A DNA stretch of 64,000 bases, taken from contig NZ_WEZF01000001.1 of NCBI RefSeq assembly GCF_009177065.1, forward strand, positions 62,001-126,000, in the 5' to 3' direction. Positions 19,051 to 63,353 of this stretch are shown piece after piece. Both the position numbers and the translations under genes were made by a program. The number at the start of each line of letters is the position of its first letter. Within the stretch, counting starts at the first letter, position 1. Source of the stretch: Tautonia marina (GTDB lineage: Bacteria > Planctomycetota > Planctomycetia > Isosphaerales > Isosphaeraceae). The notes below the pieces were generated by a model. It made no database searches. It was not told the origin of the DNA and saw only the letters and a program-made list of their open reading frames with translations.

Positions 19051-19090
<40 letters not shown>

Positions 19091-27862: not shown

Positions 27863-30800
27863 TTACTTGCTTGCTTTGAGGAATTTGACCAGGTCGGCGA
27901 GTTCCTGCGGGGTGAGCTGTTCGTCGAGGCCGGCGGGCATGATGGAGGTGGTGCCGGGCTGCATCTCCTCGATCGCGTCGCGGGCGATTTGAATGGATTC
28001 GTCGGCGTTGAGGACGAGAGTGACGTGGTCCGGCCCTTCGTCGCCGATCAGGCCGCTGAGCACCTGGCCGTCGACCGTGGCGACGACAAGGGTTTCGTAG
28101 CTGCGGACGAAGCTGGCGCTGGGGTAGGCGATGGCTTCGAGCAGGTCGCGCTCGGTGCGGATGCCACCGATTCGGCTCAGGTCGGGGCCGACCTTGCCGC
28201 CGACGTATCCCATGGCGTGACAGGTCCGGCAGGCGGCCTTCTCGCTGTTGAAGACGGCCTGGCCGCGGTAGACGTCCCCTTGCTCGACCAGGGGGAGCAG
28301 GGTCTCGATCCGGGCGAGCTTCTCGGCGGCGTCGGCGTCGAGGGCGGCCAGCAGGGCCGAGCCGCGCGCAGCCACGGTCGGGCCGAAGCGGTCGAGCAGG
28401 GTGCGGACGTCGCCCGGGGCGAGGCTCCCTCGGCTCGGCGAGGCGTCGATCGCGGCCACAAGTCGGAGGCCGAGCGTTTCGTCGTCCTGGCCGTCGAAGG
28501 CCGGAAGCAGGCGAGGGACGGAGAGCGGCCCGGCCTCGGCGATCTGATCGGCAAGCGTGAGCAAGCGATTCTCGCTCAAGGTCGAGGCCACCAGCAGATC
28601 GGCGGCTCGGGTCTGTTCGGTCGCGGGGGAGTCGGGGTCGAGGCGATCGAGGAGGAAAGCGAACAGGTCGTCGTCCAGGCGTCCGACCCCTCCCGGCAGG
28701 GCCGAGAGGGCGTCGAGCCGGGCGGTCGGTTCGGCGTCGCCGTCGTGGGCGATCCGGAGCAAGGGGGCGCGAAGCGTCTCGGCCTCGGCTCCCTTCACCC
28801 TGAGCGCCCGAGCTGCCGAGACGCCCAGCGGGCGGAGGGTGTCGGAGTCGATTGCCTCGGCCACGGCGGCGACCCAGGACGGGGGGGCCGGGTCGATGGT
28901 CGCTCGGGCCATCGCGGCCAGGGCGGCCTGCCGAGAGGCGGCGGGGGCCTTCGGATCGTCCAGGGTGTCGGCGATGACCTGCTGAATCTCGGGAGACGAG
29001 GCGAGGGCGGCCAACTGATCGACGAGGGCGTCCTGGTCGTCCTCCGTCGCGTCGCGGAGCTGCCGCTCGAAGTGCTGGGCGAGGTCGGCCCCCCACTCGG
29101 GCTTCCGGCTGGCGATCCAGGCGGCGGCCTCGCGCAGTTCGGGGTCGTCGGACGACAGCAGGGGGGCCACGTCGCCCGGCTTCAGGTGGTCGCCGGGCAT
29201 CTGGTCGAGGGCGATGAGAGCGGCCCGGATCACGGTGTCGTGCGGGGCGCTGAGGCCGAACCGGGTGACCTCGGGGGCGTTCAGTTCGATCAGAGCGGCG
29301 ATGAGCGAGTGCTGCACGGCCCAGTGCGGGGCGTCGGGCAGGTCGGCCATCGCCTGGAGCAGGAAGGGGACGATGGAGGCATCACCGATGCGTCCGGTGG
29401 CCTCGGCGGCGGCCCGGCGGTTCTGGGGAGAGCCGGTGTGCAGGAGGTTGACCACGCGGTCGAGGGCCTCGGTATCGCGGTGGACGCTGATGACGTGCAG
29501 GGCGGCCTGAACGACGGTTTCAGCCTCGTCCTTCAGGGCGATCCGGGCGACTTCGCGGGCATCGGGAGTGTCGATCCGGCTGCTGGCCCAGACGGCATTG
29601 AGGCGAGCTTCGGGAGCGTCGGACTGCTGGACGATCGCGGTGAGCGCGGTCACGGCCTCGGCTCCGAGCTGACCGAGGGCGGCCACGGCCCGTTCGCGGA
29701 CCATCGGGCGGGGGTCGGAAAGCAGGGGGGGGAGGGCCTCGGCGGTGGCGTTGTCCCAGGCGATTGACAGGCCGCGGGGGTCGTCAACCTTCGGGGCGTC
29801 GGCCTTCCGAATCCGATAGATCGCTCCCAGGACGTCGGGCTTGTGCAGTTGCGAGGTCGGGCAGCAGAGCTTGTACCAGCCGCCGGTATCGACCACGAGG
29901 ACCGAGCCATCGGCATCTTCGAGAACGTCGGTCGGGTGGAAGTCGGAGTTGTCGGACTGGATGAGGATGCCGTCGGTGGTGGTGAACGATCCGCCGTCGG
30001 GCTGAAGCTGGTGTCGGCTGACGGCGCGGAGGTTGAACTGGCAGGCGAGCAGGTTGTTCTGGAAGTCGTCGCCCAGGCCGGTGCCTCGGAGTCGTTCCAG
30101 GCCGGCCGGGGCGGCGGGGCCGAGGTGGGTGAGGACGGGCAAGACGCCGGGACGGGTGCGGGGGTGCCCCTCGATGACGTTGTGGACCTTGCCGTAGACG
30201 CCGCCGTAGAGGGCGTGGATCAGACCGTCGCGGTAGCCGCCGGCGGGGTACTGGAAGAAGGTGGTGGTGAAGATGCGCTCGCCGCCGGGGGTGAAGACGA
30301 CATCGACCGGGTTATCCATGCCGCCGGTCATGACCGGCTCGATCGGCCCCTGGCGATCGGCTCGCCAGCGGAAAATGTGAGAGGCCCGGGTGACGAACGG
30401 GGGGGCGTTGTCGCGTTCGTAGGTCTGCTCGGCGAAGGCTCCCTTGGCCCAGTAGACCCAGCCGTCGGGACCGAGGTAGGGACCGTGCAGGTCGTTGGCG
30501 CAGCCGGTCAGGGTCTTGGCGTCGAGCCAGACCTCGCGCTGGTCGGCGATGCCGTCGCCAGTGGTGTCGGTCATCTTCCAGATGTGCGGCGGGGCGGAGA
30601 CGTAGAGCGAGCCGTCGAGCCACATCGTGCCTTCGGGGAACATCATGCGGTCGGCGAAGACGGTGCGACGGTCGAAGGTGCCGTCGCCGTCGGTGTCTTC
30701 GAGGCGGAGGATGCGGTGCGGCTTCTGTTCGAGCTGGACCTGGACCGGGTCGTTCGAGCCGGACGACTCGGCCACGTACAGGCGGCCCTGCTCGTCGAAG

Positions 30801-30982
30801 GCGGCGGTGATCGGCCGATCGACCAGAGGAGGGCCAGCGGCGACCTCGACGGTGAAGCCGTCGGGAATCGTGAAGCGGTGGTCTCCCAACTCGATCACCT
30901 CGTCGGCCCGGAGGCTCGGAGAGACGATCAGGAGCGGAACGAGGAGGAGCAAGCTCGGGACGATCGTCGGAGCGGGTCGCAT
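27863..30982 (-). CDS. PVC-type heme-binding CxxCH protein with propeller and HEAT-like repeats
   Basis: A 1039-aa exported protein. The ATG at 30982 opens a signal peptide (PSLLLLVPLLIVSPSLRADE). Residues about 30-420 form a soluble-dehydrogenase-like propeller (ITAAFDEQGRLYVAES, LRLEDTDGDGTFDRRTVFAD, LHGPYLGPDGWVYW, GGMDNPVDVVFTPGGERIF, FHPTDVLEDADGSVLVVD). Residues about 450-880 are Ala/Leu-rich HEAT-like helical repeats. The C-terminal cytochrome c-like domain has CRTCH near residue 918 (KAACRTCHAMGYVGGKVGPD), followed by a PSASF and a SGLIGDEG block. This three-part layout is a hallmark of the PVC group; electron transfer linked to sugar oxidation is suspected, not proven. It diverges from the kinase gene across 1.2 kb of repeat-rich DNA. 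Confidence 0.93.
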   Translation of the reverse strand: MRPAPTIVPSLLLLVPLLIVSPSLRADEVIELGDHRFTIPDGFTVEVAAGPPLVDRPITAAFDEQGRLYVAESSGSNDPVQVQLEQKPHRILRLEDTDGDGTFDRRTVFADRMMFPEGTMWLDGSLYVSAPPHIWKMTDTTGDGIADQREVWLDAKTLTGCANDLHGPYLGPDGWVYWAKGAFAEQTYERDNAPPFVTRASHIFRWRADRQGPIEPVMTGGMDNPVDVVFTPGGERIFTTTFFQYPAGGYRDGLIHALYGGVYGKVHNVIEGHPRTRPGVLPVLTHLGPAAPAGLERLRGTGLGDDFQNNLLACQFNLRAVSRHQLQPDGGSFTTTDGILIQSDNSDFHPTDVLEDADGSVLVVDTGGWYKLCCPTSQLHKPDVLGAIYRIRKADAPKVDDPRGLSIAWDNATAEALPPLLSDPRPMVRERAVAALGQLGAEAVTALTAIVQQSDAPEARLNAVWASSRIDTPDAREVARIALKDEAETVVQAALHVISVHRDTEALDRVVNLLHTGSPQNRRAAAEATGRIGDASIVPFLLQAMADLPDAPHWAVQHSLIAALIELNAPEVTRFGLSAPHDTVIRAALIALDQMPGDHLKPGDVAPLLSSDDPELREAAAWIASRKPEWGADLAQHFERQLRDATEDDQDALVDQLAALASSPEIQQVIADTLDDPKAPAASRQAALAAMARATIDPAPPSWVAAVAEAIDSDTLRPLGVSAARALRVKGAEAETLRAPLLRIAHDGDAEPTARLDALSALPGGVGRLDDDLFAFLLDRLDPDSPATEQTRAADLLVASTLSENRLLTLADQIAEAGPLSVPRLLPAFDGQDDETLGLRLVAAIDASPSRGSLAPGDVRTLLDRFGPTVAARGSALLAALDADAAEKLARIETLLPLVEQGDVYRGQAVFNSEKAACRTCHAMGYVGGKVGPDLSRIGGIRTERDLLEAIAYPSASFVRSYETLVVATVDGQVLSGLIGDEGPDHVTLVLNADESIQIARDAIEEMQPGTTSIMPAGLDEQLTPQELADLVKFLKASK

Positions 30983-31146: not shown

Positions 31147-31600
31147 CGGTGCGCCTTGTCATGTGGCCCTGATGCGCCTCGGTGCGCTTCGAGGGAATGA
31201 CGCAACTTGCCTGATCGAAGGCGGTTCAGTCTGTTTTTGCCATTCGTTTCGGGAAACGGTCCCGCGCACTCGGGACCGGCGAGGGCCGCACTCGGGCGGG
31301 AGAGCCGTTCGAGGCAGGTGCGCCGCCGTGTGAGGTGCCGGTGCGCTGCGGTGCGCCTTGTCGAAACAGGGTAACATTCTGTTTCGAGTGGGTTTACGTT
31401 CGAACGTCGTGGTTCGTTTCGGGAAACGGCCTGGCGCATCGGGGAGCAGGGAAGGATGCGCTCGCCCGGAACAGGGGGTGTCGTCCCTGGTGCGCTGCGG
31501 TGCGCGGGCTGGGATCGGGGCGGTGCGCTTGCAAGAGAATTCGGAAGTCATGGTTTGAGAGGGGTTTAAGGCGATTTTTTGTGTTCGTTTCGGGAAATTG
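31147..31600 (+). repeat. Cluster of about three 170-bp imperfect tandem repeats (cluster A)
   Basis: Each copy has box 1, CGGTGCGC(T/C)T, at 31180, 31349 and 31521, and box 2, TTCGTTTCGGGAAA, at 31243, 31413 and 31584. Box spacing is 63, 64 and 63 bases, and the period is 169-172 bases, while the sequence between the boxes varies. Box 2 holds the palindrome CGTTTC-GG-GAAACG in the first two copies. A further CGGTGCGCCT at 31147 and a half box at about 31745 suggest decayed copies at both ends. The same boxes recur in inverted orientation near 61.9 kb. No open frame stays consistent through the copies. Confidence 0.85.
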
Positions 31601-32161
31601 AGGGTTGCGTTTTGGGATCGACCAGGCGCGAGGCTCGCGTTGGGGCGTATCGGGGGGGCAACGAGTGATCGAGAGGGAAGGTGAGGGGATTGCCTGGAAA
31701 ACGGGGAGGCGCCGGCCGACGGAGCGAGCGGTCATCAAGAGCATCGGGAAATTGGGCAGGGGCAGTCACTTTCAGCGTTCGGAAATTAAAAGGAGCAGGG
31801 GGGAGCACTCGGTGGCGAGGCGTGGGAAGACTACCGGGGGGCGATCGCGGGAAGGTGGGGGAACGAAGGGGGAGAGGGCGTGTCCATTGTGACGGGGCCG
31901 GGGGCCTCGTAAGATGGGTGCCTCAGCTCGCGGTCTTTTGGATTGGAGGGGAACCCCTCCCTGACCCCGCCCTCATTCCCGAGTCTGCGGAAGAGGGAAA
32001 GGGGACGTGATGTCCGTTCGCCTTCTCCGCACCCTCTCCACGCAAGGGCGGGGGAGCGGGGGCAAGAATTGAGTCGCGCGAGCGAACAGGGTTCGAGCCG
32101 GTGGCGAGATCGAGGGGCGGTCTAGTTGGGGCCGGTCCGGGTGTCCGAGGAGTGCCCAAAG
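31598..32161. other. Non-coding stretch upstream of the kinase gene
   Basis: No credible gene is seen between the repeat cluster and the kinase start. The stretch is purine-rich on the plus strand and contains a perfect GGAGGGG-AA-CCCCTCC palindrome at 31946-31961 and a weaker REP-like palindrome (accctctcc and gggggag, about 32030-32056). It must include the kinase promoter, which I cannot place. Confidence 0.6.
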
Positions 32162-34519
32162 GTGATCGGCACGACGCTGAAGCGACGGTTCTCGATTGAT
32201 CGTGAACTGGGACGAGGGGGGATGGGGGCGGTCTTTCGCGCTCTGGACCTGACGCTTCAGCGGCCGGTGGCCATTAAGATCCTCCGTGAGCTGGGCGGGC
32301 CGGAGGTTCACGAGCGGCTCGGCCTCGAAGCCCGCATTCTCGCCCGGTTGCAGCACGACGGCATCGTTCGGCTCTACGACTTCGACCAGGAAGACGGCAT
32401 CACCTACTTCATCATGGAGGAGGTGGACGGGCCGAGCTATCACCTGCGCTGGAAGGACCTGCCGATCCCGAAGCGCCTGGGCATTCTGGCCTCGGTGGCC
32501 GAGGCGCTCGACTACGCCCACCACCAGGGGATCATCCACCGCGATCTGAAGCCCGGGAACATCCTGCTGACCCGAGACGACCGGCCGAAGCTCTCGGACT
32601 TCGGCCTCTCGGTCCTGATGGAGCAGGAGCAGGAAACCGGCGTCGCCCGCGGAACGCCACTCTATATGAGTCCGGAACAGGCCCGAGGACGGAAGCTCGA
32701 CCCGAGGTCCGACCTGTACTCGCTCGGTGTCTTGCTCTACGAGGCGGCGACGGGAGGGACTCCCTTTCGAGGGAACCCGATGGCGGTGATGGCGCAGCAC
32801 GTCAGCTCGGAGCCGGCGGAACCCCGGTCGATCAACCCCGAGATTTCCGAAGCGCTCAACGCCTTGATCCTCCGCCTGATGGCCAAGGCCCCGGCCGATC
32901 GCCCGGCCACCGGAGCCGAGGCCGCCGCGGCCATCCGCCACCTGATCGAAGGGGACCGCTGGCGAAGCGGAGCCGAACCCAAGCCCGAAGGCGCGGTCGA
33001 TGCCGTGGCGGAGACAGTCGCGGCCGCCGCACCGACGGTCGCGGCCGAGGCCGAGGCCGCCCCGGGCTCGAAGCGTCGCTCGATCAAGCGTCGGAAAGAC
33101 GCGGAGCAGATGATCGCCGAGGTGGAGCGCGTGCCGATCGTGCTTTCGGCCGAGGAGCGGTATCTGAGCGGGCATTATCTGGCCTACTTGCTTGGCGGCT
33201 CGCGGCGGCGCGGCATCTTCCTGATGCGGCCGCTCGACCCGAGAAACGCCGACCGGGCTCGCCTGATGCTGGCGATGACCTGGCTGATGACCCTGCGGAA
33301 GGTCACCGAGGAGGACATCGCTCGGGCCGCCCGTTTGCTCGATGAGCAGGTGGACATCCGGCCGATGCTGAGCCCGATCGTCGTCATCAAGTACCTGCGC
33401 GGTCGGGCCGACGCTGCCCGCCGGAAGCGCTTCCGCAAGATTCGCCAGGCGTTGCAACAGGCGAGCAAGCGTGCCCAGGCCCACCTGACCGACGAGAACG
33501 GCCTGCTCAACCCCGGCCTGATGCCCCAGAACCTCGACGACCTGAAGAAGATCGCCCCGCAACGGACCGAGGTGGATGACCATCTGGTCGATCGCTGGAA
33601 CCGCCTGACCGACGCCTGGCGATCGCGTCCCGAGTTCCGCCGCGCGATCCTGAAGTACGCCACCCTCCGCGCCGCCGACGATCCGGCCAGCGAGCGGCTT
33701 TGGCCCGAGGTGGTGCACCCGCTTATCGAACGCGCGTTGTGGCAGCGTCGCTTGCGATCGAAGGCCGAGGGGTTCTGGGACGCCGCCAGTCGGGTCGTGC
33801 CCGTTTCGGCTGCTCCGGGCCGGATGATGGATCGGGCAATCGAAACGTCGGTGCCCGTGGATGACGTGGACGACCTGGACGACTCGCTGGAGCATTTCGA
33901 GCCGGACCCCGAGTACCTGGACGCGGTGCTCGACGACGAGGAGCCGATCTCCGAACCCGAGCCGGTGTCGAGCCTGACCGTCAGCCGGGCCTCGCTTCGG
34001 GCGATCACGGGCGAAGAAAGCTCCTCGTCGCGCGAGTTCATTCCGCTGGTTGATCCCGACCCCGAATGTTTCTCACTGGGAGAACTGCGCGAGCTTCGTC
34101 TCGAAGCGCTGAACGCGTTGAAAAACCGCTCGGCCACGCAAGGGCACCGGATCGTGCCCGTCGGGCCGTATCGGCTGGCGGTTGTTCCTTCGGTTCGGGC
34201 CAACAAGGCCGGTACGGTGGCGATTCAGGGGATGCCGAACAAGCAAATCGAGATGCTTGTCCCTTCCTTCGCCGGGGGCGGGTCGAACGCGAAGCCGATC
34301 CTGGCCGTCTGGCATTATACGAACAAGAGCATGGTGATCGGTTACCTCGATCAGCGCAGCTCGCCGCGCTACATTCTTTGGAACGCCGCCGTCAACCAGC
34401 AATCGAACCACCCCGAACCCGCCGACTTGAACAGCGAGCTGTTGAAGCTCAACATGGAAGCGCCCGATCGGCCCGACAAGGCGCTCGTCAAGCGCTTCTG
34501 GTCGTCGGGGAGCAAGTGA
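32162..34519 (+). CDS. Soluble Ser/Thr protein kinase with a large unknown C-terminal region
   Basis: A 785-aa Hanks-type kinase. GAGGAG nine bases before the GTG at 32162 supports this start over upstream TTG and GTG codons. The N-terminal catalytic domain (residues about 8-270) is intact: glycine loop GRGGMG at 17-22, ATP lysine in VAIK (Lys39), Glu57, catalytic HRDLKPGN at 126-133, DFG at 146-148, and SPEQARG at the end of the activation segment. A Lys/Arg-rich linker (GSKRRSIKRRKD) follows an Ala-rich segment. The remaining 480 residues match nothing I know; they are helical, then acidic (VDDVDDLDDSLEHFEPD), then a compact C-terminal domain. No membrane helix is seen, unlike many PASTA or TPR kinases. 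It precedes fhcA by 42 bases. Confidence 0.9.
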   Translation: MIGTTLKRRFSIDRELGRGGMGAVFRALDLTLQRPVAIKILRELGGPEVHERLGLEARILARLQHDGIVRLYDFDQEDGITYFIMEEVDGPSYHLRWKDLPIPKRLGILASVAEALDYAHHQGIIHRDLKPGNILLTRDDRPKLSDFGLSVLMEQEQETGVARGTPLYMSPEQARGRKLDPRSDLYSLGVLLYEAATGGTPFRGNPMAVMAQHVSSEPAEPRSINPEISEALNALILRLMAKAPADRPATGAEAAAAIRHLIEGDRWRSGAEPKPEGAVDAVAETVAAAAPTVAAEAEAAPGSKRRSIKRRKDAEQMIAEVERVPIVLSAEERYLSGHYLAYLLGGSRRRGIFLMRPLDPRNADRARLMLAMTWLMTLRKVTEEDIARAARLLDEQVDIRPMLSPIVVIKYLRGRADAARRKRFRKIRQALQQASKRAQAHLTDENGLLNPGLMPQNLDDLKKIAPQRTEVDDHLVDRWNRLTDAWRSRPEFRRAILKYATLRAADDPASERLWPEVVHPLIERALWQRRLRSKAEGFWDAASRVVPVSAAPGRMMDRAIETSVPVDDVDDLDDSLEHFEPDPEYLDAVLDDEEPISEPEPVSSLTVSRASLRAITGEESSSSREFIPLVDPDPECFSLGELRELRLEALNALKNRSATQGHRIVPVGPYRLAVVPSVRANKAGTVAIQGMPNKQIEMLVPSFAGGGSNAKPILAVWHYTNKSMVIGYLDQRSSPRYILWNAAVNQQSNHPEPADLNSELLKLNMEAPDRPDKALVKRFWSSGSK

Positions 34520-61334: not shown

Positions 61335-62150
61335 GAACGTTGGTCACTCCTTCAAGGATCGAGTACCCAGGGGAGGGGCGAAGTCCCCGCAGTTGCCCGA
61401 TGGGCTCCCGAGAACGCTGCTCGGACGGCGAGTTTCCCCCCGTCGTGGCTTGCGTCGAACCGAACGCCGTGGCGTCGACTCACCGAGAGTCCATCCGGCC
61501 CTCGACCTTCTCTACCCCGACCGTGTCGGCGTCGTGTCCTTCCATGCATGAAAACAACGCTGCTCGGTGAATCGAGGCAACACCCCTTGCCGATCCGCTC
61601 CCGCCCGGCCTTGCCTTGCGTCTTCGATTCCTCGAAACAAAAAGTGACTGCCGCTCCTCCCAATCACGAGATTCATAGAGAGTGACGAGGGCGCGCTTGA
61701 ACCTCTCGCTCGATCCTCCGCGGCCTTCCTTTGCCGTCCGTGTTTCCTCCCGAGCCGCGAATCGCGCTCCCCTGTTTCATGCTCCTTGACAATTCGGCAC
61801 ACGTCCCCGATCGCCCACCCCGGCTCGTTCGAAACAAAAGCCAAGCCTCCAACCCTCGTTTCCCGAAACGAACAGCCTGGATCGCGATAACCTCTGTTTT
61901 TCAAATGGCTTGCGGCTTTGGTTCCTGGCGCACCGCCAGTGCGTCGTCGGGCGCACCTCGCCCGGCCGTCGCGTTCGAGGCGACTCGTCCGCGAGCCGGG
62001 CGCAATTCGGGCGAAGGCTGTCTCCGAATTCCCGAAACAAACGGGCGGAGGAGATGGGAAACGTCTTTCAGGGTATGGAGTTACGCGTGGTTTCGTCTGC
62101 CGATTTACGGCGCACCGAGCCGCGCATCCGAGGCGCACCGACGGTCGCCC
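61335..62150. other. 816-base intergenic region upstream of the PEP-CTERM gene
   Basis: No credible gene is seen. The first 290 bases should hold the PEP-CTERM promoter. From about 61620 the DNA takes on the composition of the repeat cluster near 31.3 kb, in reverse orientation, with several CGAAACAAA motifs (61632 and 61830) that resemble decayed box 2 copies. Confidence 0.6.
61859..62117 (-). repeat. Inverted cluster of the 170-bp repeat (cluster B)
   Basis: Two copies lie on the minus strand. Box 2 (TTCGTTTCGGGAAA read on the minus strand) is at 61859-61872 and, with three changes, at 62028-62041, a period of 169 bases. Box 1 (CGGTGCGCC) ends at 61935 and 62117. The box spacing is 63 bases in the first copy, exactly as in cluster A, and 76 in the second. 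Confidence 0.78.
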
Positions 62151-63353
62151 TTACTGGCCCGAGGCGGTCGGGTCGCTCAGGATCGGCAGGACGCGGGTTT
62201 GCAAGCCGCCGGTGACGTGGACCTCACCGCCGGCGTCGATGAAAACATCGACCTCGGAGCGAACCCCGAACTCGGGCAGATAGATCCCCGGCTCGATCGA
62301 GAAACAGGTTCGAGGGAGGACCAGGCGCGTTTCGTGGGTTTCGAGGTTGTCCATGTTCGCACCGTTGCCGTGCGTTTCCTCGCCGATGCTGTGGCCGGTC
62401 CGGTGGATGAACGCCTCGCCGTAGCCGGCGGCCTCGATCTCGTGGCGAGCGGCGTCATCGACCTCGAAGCCGCGCAAGGGTGTCCTGGTCTGGAAGGCGT
62501 TCCGGACGCGGGCAATCGCGGCGTCTCGGGCCCGGGCGACGATCTGGAAAATGGTTTCGAACTGCTCGGGCACCTCGGTCCCGACGAAGCCGACGCGGGT
62601 CAGGTCGCTGTAGACGCCCCCCGGCCGGTCGCACTTGCCCCAGAGGTCGATCAGGACGAAATCCCCCTCGCGGATCTCGGCGTCCTGACCGGCCTTCGGC
62701 TCATAGTGCGGGTCGCCGCTGTGGGGCCCGACCCCGACGATCGGCGGCGAGTAGGTCGTCAGGTCGTGGCGCTCAAAGTGGTCGAGGATCAGGCGCTGGA
62801 CCTCGGTCTCCCGGATCGAGCCGCCCCCGGCGGTTCGCTCGGCGATCAGGCCGAAGGCGATGTTGAAGGCCTCGGTCGTGACGCGGGTCGCCTCCTGGTG
62901 CATCGCCCATTGCTCGTCGGTCCAAGACGCCTCGAACTGCTGGATCAGGTCGCCCGAGGGCTCGACCTCGACCCCGAACGAGCGGACCAGCTCGATGACC
63001 CCGGCGTCGATCCGGGCGATGTACGGGTTTGAGACCCGAGGGGCGTATTCCATCGCCACCCGCTTCGATCCGCCGAGCATCGCCTGGACCCCGGCCTCCA
63101 GCTCCTGCCAGCGCAGGTAGACGGTCGCCTCGCCCGGCAGGTGGTCGAGGGCCCCCGGCTCGATCCGATGGACGAGCTTTTTCGGCTCCCCTTGCTTGGG
63201 GATGAAGTAGAAGAAGCGCCGCGACCCGGTCGGCCGGTGGGCCAGATCGAGGACCCGCCGGGACAGCACGTTGTTCCCCCGGAAGTCGTACAGGAGCCAG
63301 CCGTCGAAGCCGAACTGGCAGAGGGAGTCCTGAATGGCGGGCAGGTCAAACAT
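62151..63353 (-). CDS. M24-family metallopeptidase (Xaa-Pro aminopeptidase-like)
   Basis: A 400-aa pita-bread-fold peptidase. The N-terminal creatinase-like domain (about 1-150) begins FDLPAIQDSLCQFGFDGWLL. The C-terminal domain holds the five metal ligands: Asp in FVLIDLWGK, Asp in YSDLTRVGF, His in the HRTGHSIGEETHGNG block, Glu in FSIEPGIYLPEFG and Glu in VRSEVDVFI. It probably removes N-terminal residues before proline or acts on a related dipeptide. It has no signal peptide. It is 74 bases downstream of the amidase gene on the same strand and may share its transcript. Confidence 0.92.
   Translation of the reverse strand: MFDLPAIQDSLCQFGFDGWLLYDFRGNNVLSRRVLDLAHRPTGSRRFFYFIPKQGEPKKLVHRIEPGALDHLPGEATVYLRWQELEAGVQAMLGGSKRVAMEYAPRVSNPYIARIDAGVIELVRSFGVEVEPSGDLIQQFEASWTDEQWAMHQEATRVTTEAFNIAFGLIAERTAGGGSIRETEVQRLILDHFERHDLTTYSPPIVGVGPHSGDPHYEPKAGQDAEIREGDFVLIDLWGKCDRPGGVYSDLTRVGFVGTEVPEQFETIFQIVARARDAAIARVRNAFQTRTPLRGFEVDDAARHEIEAAGYGEAFIHRTGHSIGEETHGNGANMDNLETHETRLVLPRTCFSIEPGIYLPEFGVRSEVDVFIDAGGEVHVTGGLQTRVLPILSDPTASGQ

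Follow-up and report, generated by a model that had tools for sequence, protein, structure and literature searches.

In the stretch of Tautonia marina DNA analysed here (64,000 nucleotides, referred to as the window), the interval between a gene for a DUF7133/HEAT/cytochrome c protein (27863-30952, minus strand) and a protein kinase gene (32162-34519, plus strand) holds a tandem array of three modules, referred to as array A. An earlier note on this DNA had described three copies of a two-box repeat at 31147-31600, and these are present as described, with box 1 (CGGTGCGCYT) at 31180, 31349 and 31521 and mismatch-free box 2 at 31243, 31413 and 31584, giving box spacings of 63, 64 and 63 bases; the box 1 copy at 31147 is an extra iteron and not a spaced box 1. 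On the plus strand, GGTGCGC iterons occupy 31148-31187 in module 1 (at 31148 and 31181, with a degenerate ATGCGC near 31171), 31317-31356 in module 2 (at 31317, 31340 and 31350) and 31489-31528 in module 3 (at 31489, 31499 and 31522). They are followed by a dyad, which in module 1 (31199-31231) reads GACGCAAC...GTTCAGTC and follows the dyad of the family, where RNA covariation is absent, and which is weak in modules 2 (31369-31401) and 3 (31540-31572). Each module closes with box 2, found by the box-2 pattern search as TTCGTTTCGGGAAA at 31243-31256 in module 1 and located at 31413-31426 and 31584-31597 in the other two. Array A is only part of a larger object that comprises a third element and, genome-wide, further modules. 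The locus extends to ~31770 and takes in this third conserved element, a promoter-like site on the minus strand (GTGACTG...CGATGCT, 31740-31769; ATCGGG...CAGTCAC at 31743-31769 on the plus strand) that points leftward into the array and is co-directional with the DUF7133 gene, which is ~195 bp from the array.

The same window contains a second cluster of two modules on the opposite strand (array B, 61644-62140). Its promoter-like element (61644-61673, plus strand) carries one mismatch, CTCG for ATCG, and points rightward into the array. Module 1 has box 2 at 61859-61872 (minus strand), a dyad at ~61884-61916 and GGTGCGC at ~61927-61934, while module 2 has a box 2 variant, TTTGTTTCGGGAAT, at 62028-62041 (minus strand) and GGTGCGC within 62108-62140; the stop codon of an M24 peptidase gene (62151-63353, minus strand) lies ~11 bp from the array. 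Elsewhere in the window, a short tandem repeat of CTGCCTA runs for 5.7 perfect copies at 19051-19090.

Box 2 matches the window 13 times at up to 3 mismatches, a count reached by none of 100 shuffles (mean 4.5), whereas box 1 alone is not above chance there (16 matches against 17 expected). Across the 7.07-Mb genome, 58 sites match box 2 with at most one mismatch against none for the reversed control pattern, often in same-strand clusters with a spacing of roughly 170-380 bases, in agreement with the previous view that chance duplication does not account for the repeats. A search of the genome and its relatives showed further occurrences of both boxes, at the same spacing, throughout the genome and in sister species, and each locus carries 1-4 tandem modules. 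A module profile, R1, gave 88, 69, 86 and 37 matches in the four Tautonia genomes (G000, G238, G239 and G240, respectively) and 0-9 weak matches per genome outside Tautonia, with 45 family genomes scanned in all; the 37 matches of G240, which is T. sociabilis, are accompanied by only one exact third element. A broad distribution of the two-box pattern was considered and rejected: 18 single matches were found in 257 Gb, with ~14 expected by chance as an estimate, and the only credible one is in Tautonia sociabilis. Viral contigs gave four single matches, and a search of the open-access literature returned no published description of these arrays.

Alignment of 43 modules on box 2 revealed a constant order of parts, in which GGTGCGC sites at ~11.5-bp steps precede a 33-bp interrupted palindrome and then TTCGTTTCGGGAAW. 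The GGTGCGC peaks fall at -62, -74, -85, -97, -108, -120 and -132 from box 2, with modules usually carrying two to four of them at about -62, -74, -85, -97 and -108, and are followed by isolated conserved bases at A-39, T-33 and T-18 and then by G-TTCGTTTCGGGAAW. The dyad consensus from 44 aligned sequences is GACGnAAn4TTn7AAn4TTnCGnC; R1 also matches the dyad segment on the reverse strand with a common centre, and some modules have a weak dyad. When copies are compared in the module alignments, conservation outside the boxes stays close to background, and the ends of the element are not sharp. The palindrome CGTTTC-GG-GAAACG, to which attention had been drawn within box 2, is not a feature of the family, since 26 of the 43 aligned copies read GGGAAT and lack the palindrome's A.

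Most of the G239 clusters that were compared have an alignable counterpart in G000, set in matching gene context. Box 2 is 97% identical across 30 pairs of orthologous modules, a figure somewhat inflated because box 2 (up to 2 mismatches) served to find the modules, compared with 69% for dyad positions and 49-58% for linkers; the exact spacing and the zero control counts are independent of that choice. Module number is equal at 13 of 18 orthologous loci of the two species, including array A (three modules in both) and array B (two in both). The G238 loci orthologous to array B and L056 have modules with the right-hand box AAATGGSTTCGYTCCG instead, and neither G238 nor G240 has an array beside the orthologue of the gene adjoining array A; any one locus can thus do without the element.

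A third conserved site, ATCGnG-n14-CAGTCAC, lies beyond the last module on the module strand in the two window clusters and in almost every array inspected. CAGTCAC occurs within 50-700 bp past the last module 54 times on the same strand and twice antisense, and the corresponding interval upstream has none on either strand. Some loci enter these figures twice through overlapping sequence segments; once duplicates are removed, 46 distinct sequences remain. The exact pattern is found 35, 67 and 30 times in G000, G238 and G239, once in G240, and no more than twice in any of 41 other genomes of the family (control 0-1). Read on the opposite strand, the site becomes GTGACTG-n17-GATSnT, directed into the array, and by its consensus resembles a sigma-70-like promoter (putative -35 GTGACT, 18 bp, -10 GATSAT). 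The -35/-10 spacing falls within the 16-18 bp of such promoters, and both A2 and T6 of the -10 are kept; T6 is invariant (54/54) and was not imposed by the search pattern, but A2 was. The stretch between this site and the modules is ~60-580 bp long and unconserved. A motif TTGCCAARGA was also seen ~40-80 bp from the third element on the array side (e.g. L169, L176 and L066), with TTGCCAA at 17 loci versus 0 antisense.

Some third elements lack a GGTGCGC array and lie ahead of paralogous genes (L320, L321 and L331). Five such genes, termed KHGLTA genes, have the third element 128-168 nt before the start codon, and three of the five carry a module in the 3′ coding end, with the box at +1184, +1187 and +1176. 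Nine gene-type copies have a box, and in every one GCGCACC lies exactly 114 nt past the box start; the module within the coding end encodes the short conserved blocks SRNE, DRLNP and RTEP in an otherwise variable tail. No match to the KHGLTA proteins was found in Pfam, NCBIfam or PHROG, and the arrays are tied to a multicopy protein family outside these collections. Some copies of the gene are 94-96% alike and located at contig ends; at L322, a different gene, encoding a DUF433 protein, follows the third element. Multicopy 'SGPRTEAGRRRSRLNAKKHGLTA'-type proteins, which belong to no known family, were recorded at L044:503-1898, L051:781-2197, L331:1286-2691, L320, L321, L040, L047 and L053, several of them at contig ends, and they therefore probably break the assembly. 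An initial reading of the third element as the array-distal end or a terminator was dropped after the same site was found before KHGLTA starts.

The object is thus polar, running from promoter-like site through spacer or gene to modules on the strand opposite to that on which the boxes had been described; on the promoter strand a module reads TTCCCGAAACGAA, a linker, the 33-bp dyad, and GCGCACC every ~11.5 bp. Promoter and module frame some KHGLTA genes, and the non-coding arrays and these genes therefore form one family. Of the layout given in the earlier note, the conserved spaced boxes stand, while the dyad between them, the promoter-like element, the opposite-strand polarity and the link to paralogous genes had been missed.

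The arrays are intergenic and on average nearer to the gene on their GGTGCGC side. Their neighbours, among them housekeeping, kinase, sulfatase and transport genes, are not related to one another and are of mixed orientation, so that no target is evident, and a regulon of functionally related genes was rejected on the ground that the neighbours share no function. One array lies on a parA/repA contig. At L119:6200-7900 (G000 contig C34), the DNA between genes for a ParA-type ATPase and a replication initiator holds an array and a third element, together with several copies of a palindrome, CTTACACGGTGTAAG; the palindrome is likely a partition site there, and the contig is apparently a plasmid with a G239 counterpart in L113.

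Taken together, these features are interpreted as a dispersed modular intergenic element of Tautonia that combines DNA-level protein sites with a promoter-like site of its own, a reading to which we give about an even chance. Most likely, the modules would be bound at the DNA level by an assembly of sequence-specific proteins, and the bound protein complex proposed previously fits the data. A dimer or tetramer might sit on the dyad, while the 7-mers would hold a protein arrayed along the helix and box 2 would form a further site. Transcription begun at the promoter-like site would then meet the protein assembly on the modules, which may regulate it or mark its boundary.

Structured RNA, the other proposal made for these boxes, would have the dyad as the hairpin of a non-coding RNA family. 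The promoter-like element does point into the array and the dyad consensus is symmetric, but covariation is absent: dyad pairing counts equal those of shuffles (62.9 vs 63.0%), although the symmetric register pairs at 63% versus 36-47% when slid. RNAalifold predicted no consensus structure and no pairs in the module alignment, and Rfam gave no gathering-level match in the window and none in arrays of related loci. A palindrome without RNA covariation is read here as a DNA dyad, its pairing pattern being that of a site for a presumed symmetric protein and not of an RNA stem, and an RNA family is accordingly improbable on these counts. The main rival to DNA-level binding sites, itself unlikely, is that of non-autonomous mobile elements (MITE/SINE-like), with the KHGLTA gene as the autonomous member and the arrays as gene-less derivatives that it spread. 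Dozens of dispersed copies with a common promoter-like end and 3′ modules, the near-identical KHGLTA copies at contig ends, and the presence of array A in G000 and G239 but not next to the orthologue of its neighbour gene in either G238 or G240 would all suit mobility. However, there is no conservation between the boxes even among tandem copies, lengths vary, arrays hold position and module number across species, and the KHGLTA proteins match no transposase in Pfam, NCBIfam or PHROG. A full-length MITE was rejected: the body is not similar along its length, module place and number are too stable, and the bodies are too diverged for a typical MITE.

Chromosome-organising sites of the parS/matS kind, bound by a nucleoid or partition protein, would agree with the lack of a gene-orientation rule, the unrelated neighbours, and the combination of helical iterons and dyad. 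All 69 R1 matches in G238 are chromosomal, and on its chromosome (C1, which starts with dnaA as identified by eye from the sequence) the density of third elements is higher around dnaA and halfway round from it (positions 0 and 0.5 as fractions of the chromosome; second harmonic p ~0.001, post hoc). Against such a role, the spacing of these third elements is random (CV 0.95) and their strand is independent of the replichore, a promoter-like site at each locus is unexpected, and besides the array on the parA/repA contig two third elements lie on other G238 contigs; the conserved box-2 palindrome expected of a parS-type site is lost in the 26 copies without its A. We regard this explanation as quite unlikely. 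Spread of REP/BIME elements by a RAYT (Y1 transposase) is highly improbable: the intergenic position would suit it, as would the related boxes of G230, often just past stop codons (at about half of 18 loci examined, the arrays start 8-30 nt after the stop codon of a gene that runs in the same direction), yet the 136 related boxes of G230 come with no Y1_Tnp match, G231 has five Y1_Tnp matches and no boxes, and the REP hairpin is absent.

Beyond Tautonia, weak dyad matches are found in other genera with different flanking boxes, e.g., ATTGGSTTCGTTCG inverted around the dyad, or CAGTGTCAGC iterons. Taken by lineage, two Tautonia species have GGTGCGC and TTCGTTTCGGGAAW, the orthologous G238 loci have AAATGGSTTCGYTCCG, another genus has ATTGGSTTCGTTCG and a third has CAGTGTCAGC. 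RATTGGSTTCGTT alone occurs 126-221 times in four other-genus genomes (control 0-1). At L220 (G213:C224), CAGTGTCAGC iterons are inverted around a dyad of the same type, and tandem arrays of a ATTGGGTTCGTT-like box with periods of 24, 35-36 or ~23 bp were seen at G209:C1:3705939-3706071, in G205 contigs C105, C96 and C156, and at L325. A cross-genus link via the dyad is suggestive, not proven. As a tentative possibility, doubtful at present, this could be an Isosphaeraceae-wide system with a conserved dyad and lineage-specific flanking boxes that change across loci together with a DNA-binding protein, to which Tautonia would add a promoter per array: a hitherto undescribed kind of chromosomal nucleoprotein locus whose site code turns over from lineage to lineage. 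If the flanking boxes truly switch together, the system would offer a natural case of co-evolution between a DNA-binding protein and its sites across a chromosome. The Tautonia arrays provide a defined site grammar of iterons, dyad, box and promoter-like site. Each genome has dozens of these clearly constrained non-coding loci, in a group, the Planctomycetes, where little is known of intergenic biology.

Among known repeats, the BOX elements of Streptococcus pneumoniae follow the layout boxA-boxB(n)-boxC, with bodies that resemble one another from end to end and form an RNA fold, and their function is unsettled. The Tautonia arrays resemble them in layout, with no homology claimed, in being dispersed and intergenic with a unique end and a variable number of internal modules; unlike BOX, they keep only short boxes and a DNA dyad, have a promoter-like end, and share parts with related protein genes. 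With REP/BIME elements and their RAYTs (PMC2817692, PMC3733652) they have in common high-copy intergenic repeats, mosaic clusters and protein-binding sites (putative here), but they lack the REP hairpin, their number is unrelated to Y1_Tnp, and they show strict box spacing and a dedicated promoter-like element. Bacterial MITEs (PMC10969869) likewise form dozens of small, non-coding, dispersed elements, whereas the Tautonia arrays have no conserved body and their boxes are under purifying selection at orthologous loci. Finally, the helically spaced direct 7-mers beside a dyad are reminiscent of iteron origins and plasmid partition sites, from which the Tautonia arrays differ in their dozens of chromosomal copies, the absence of an attached initiator or ParB gene, and an unconserved box-2 palindrome.
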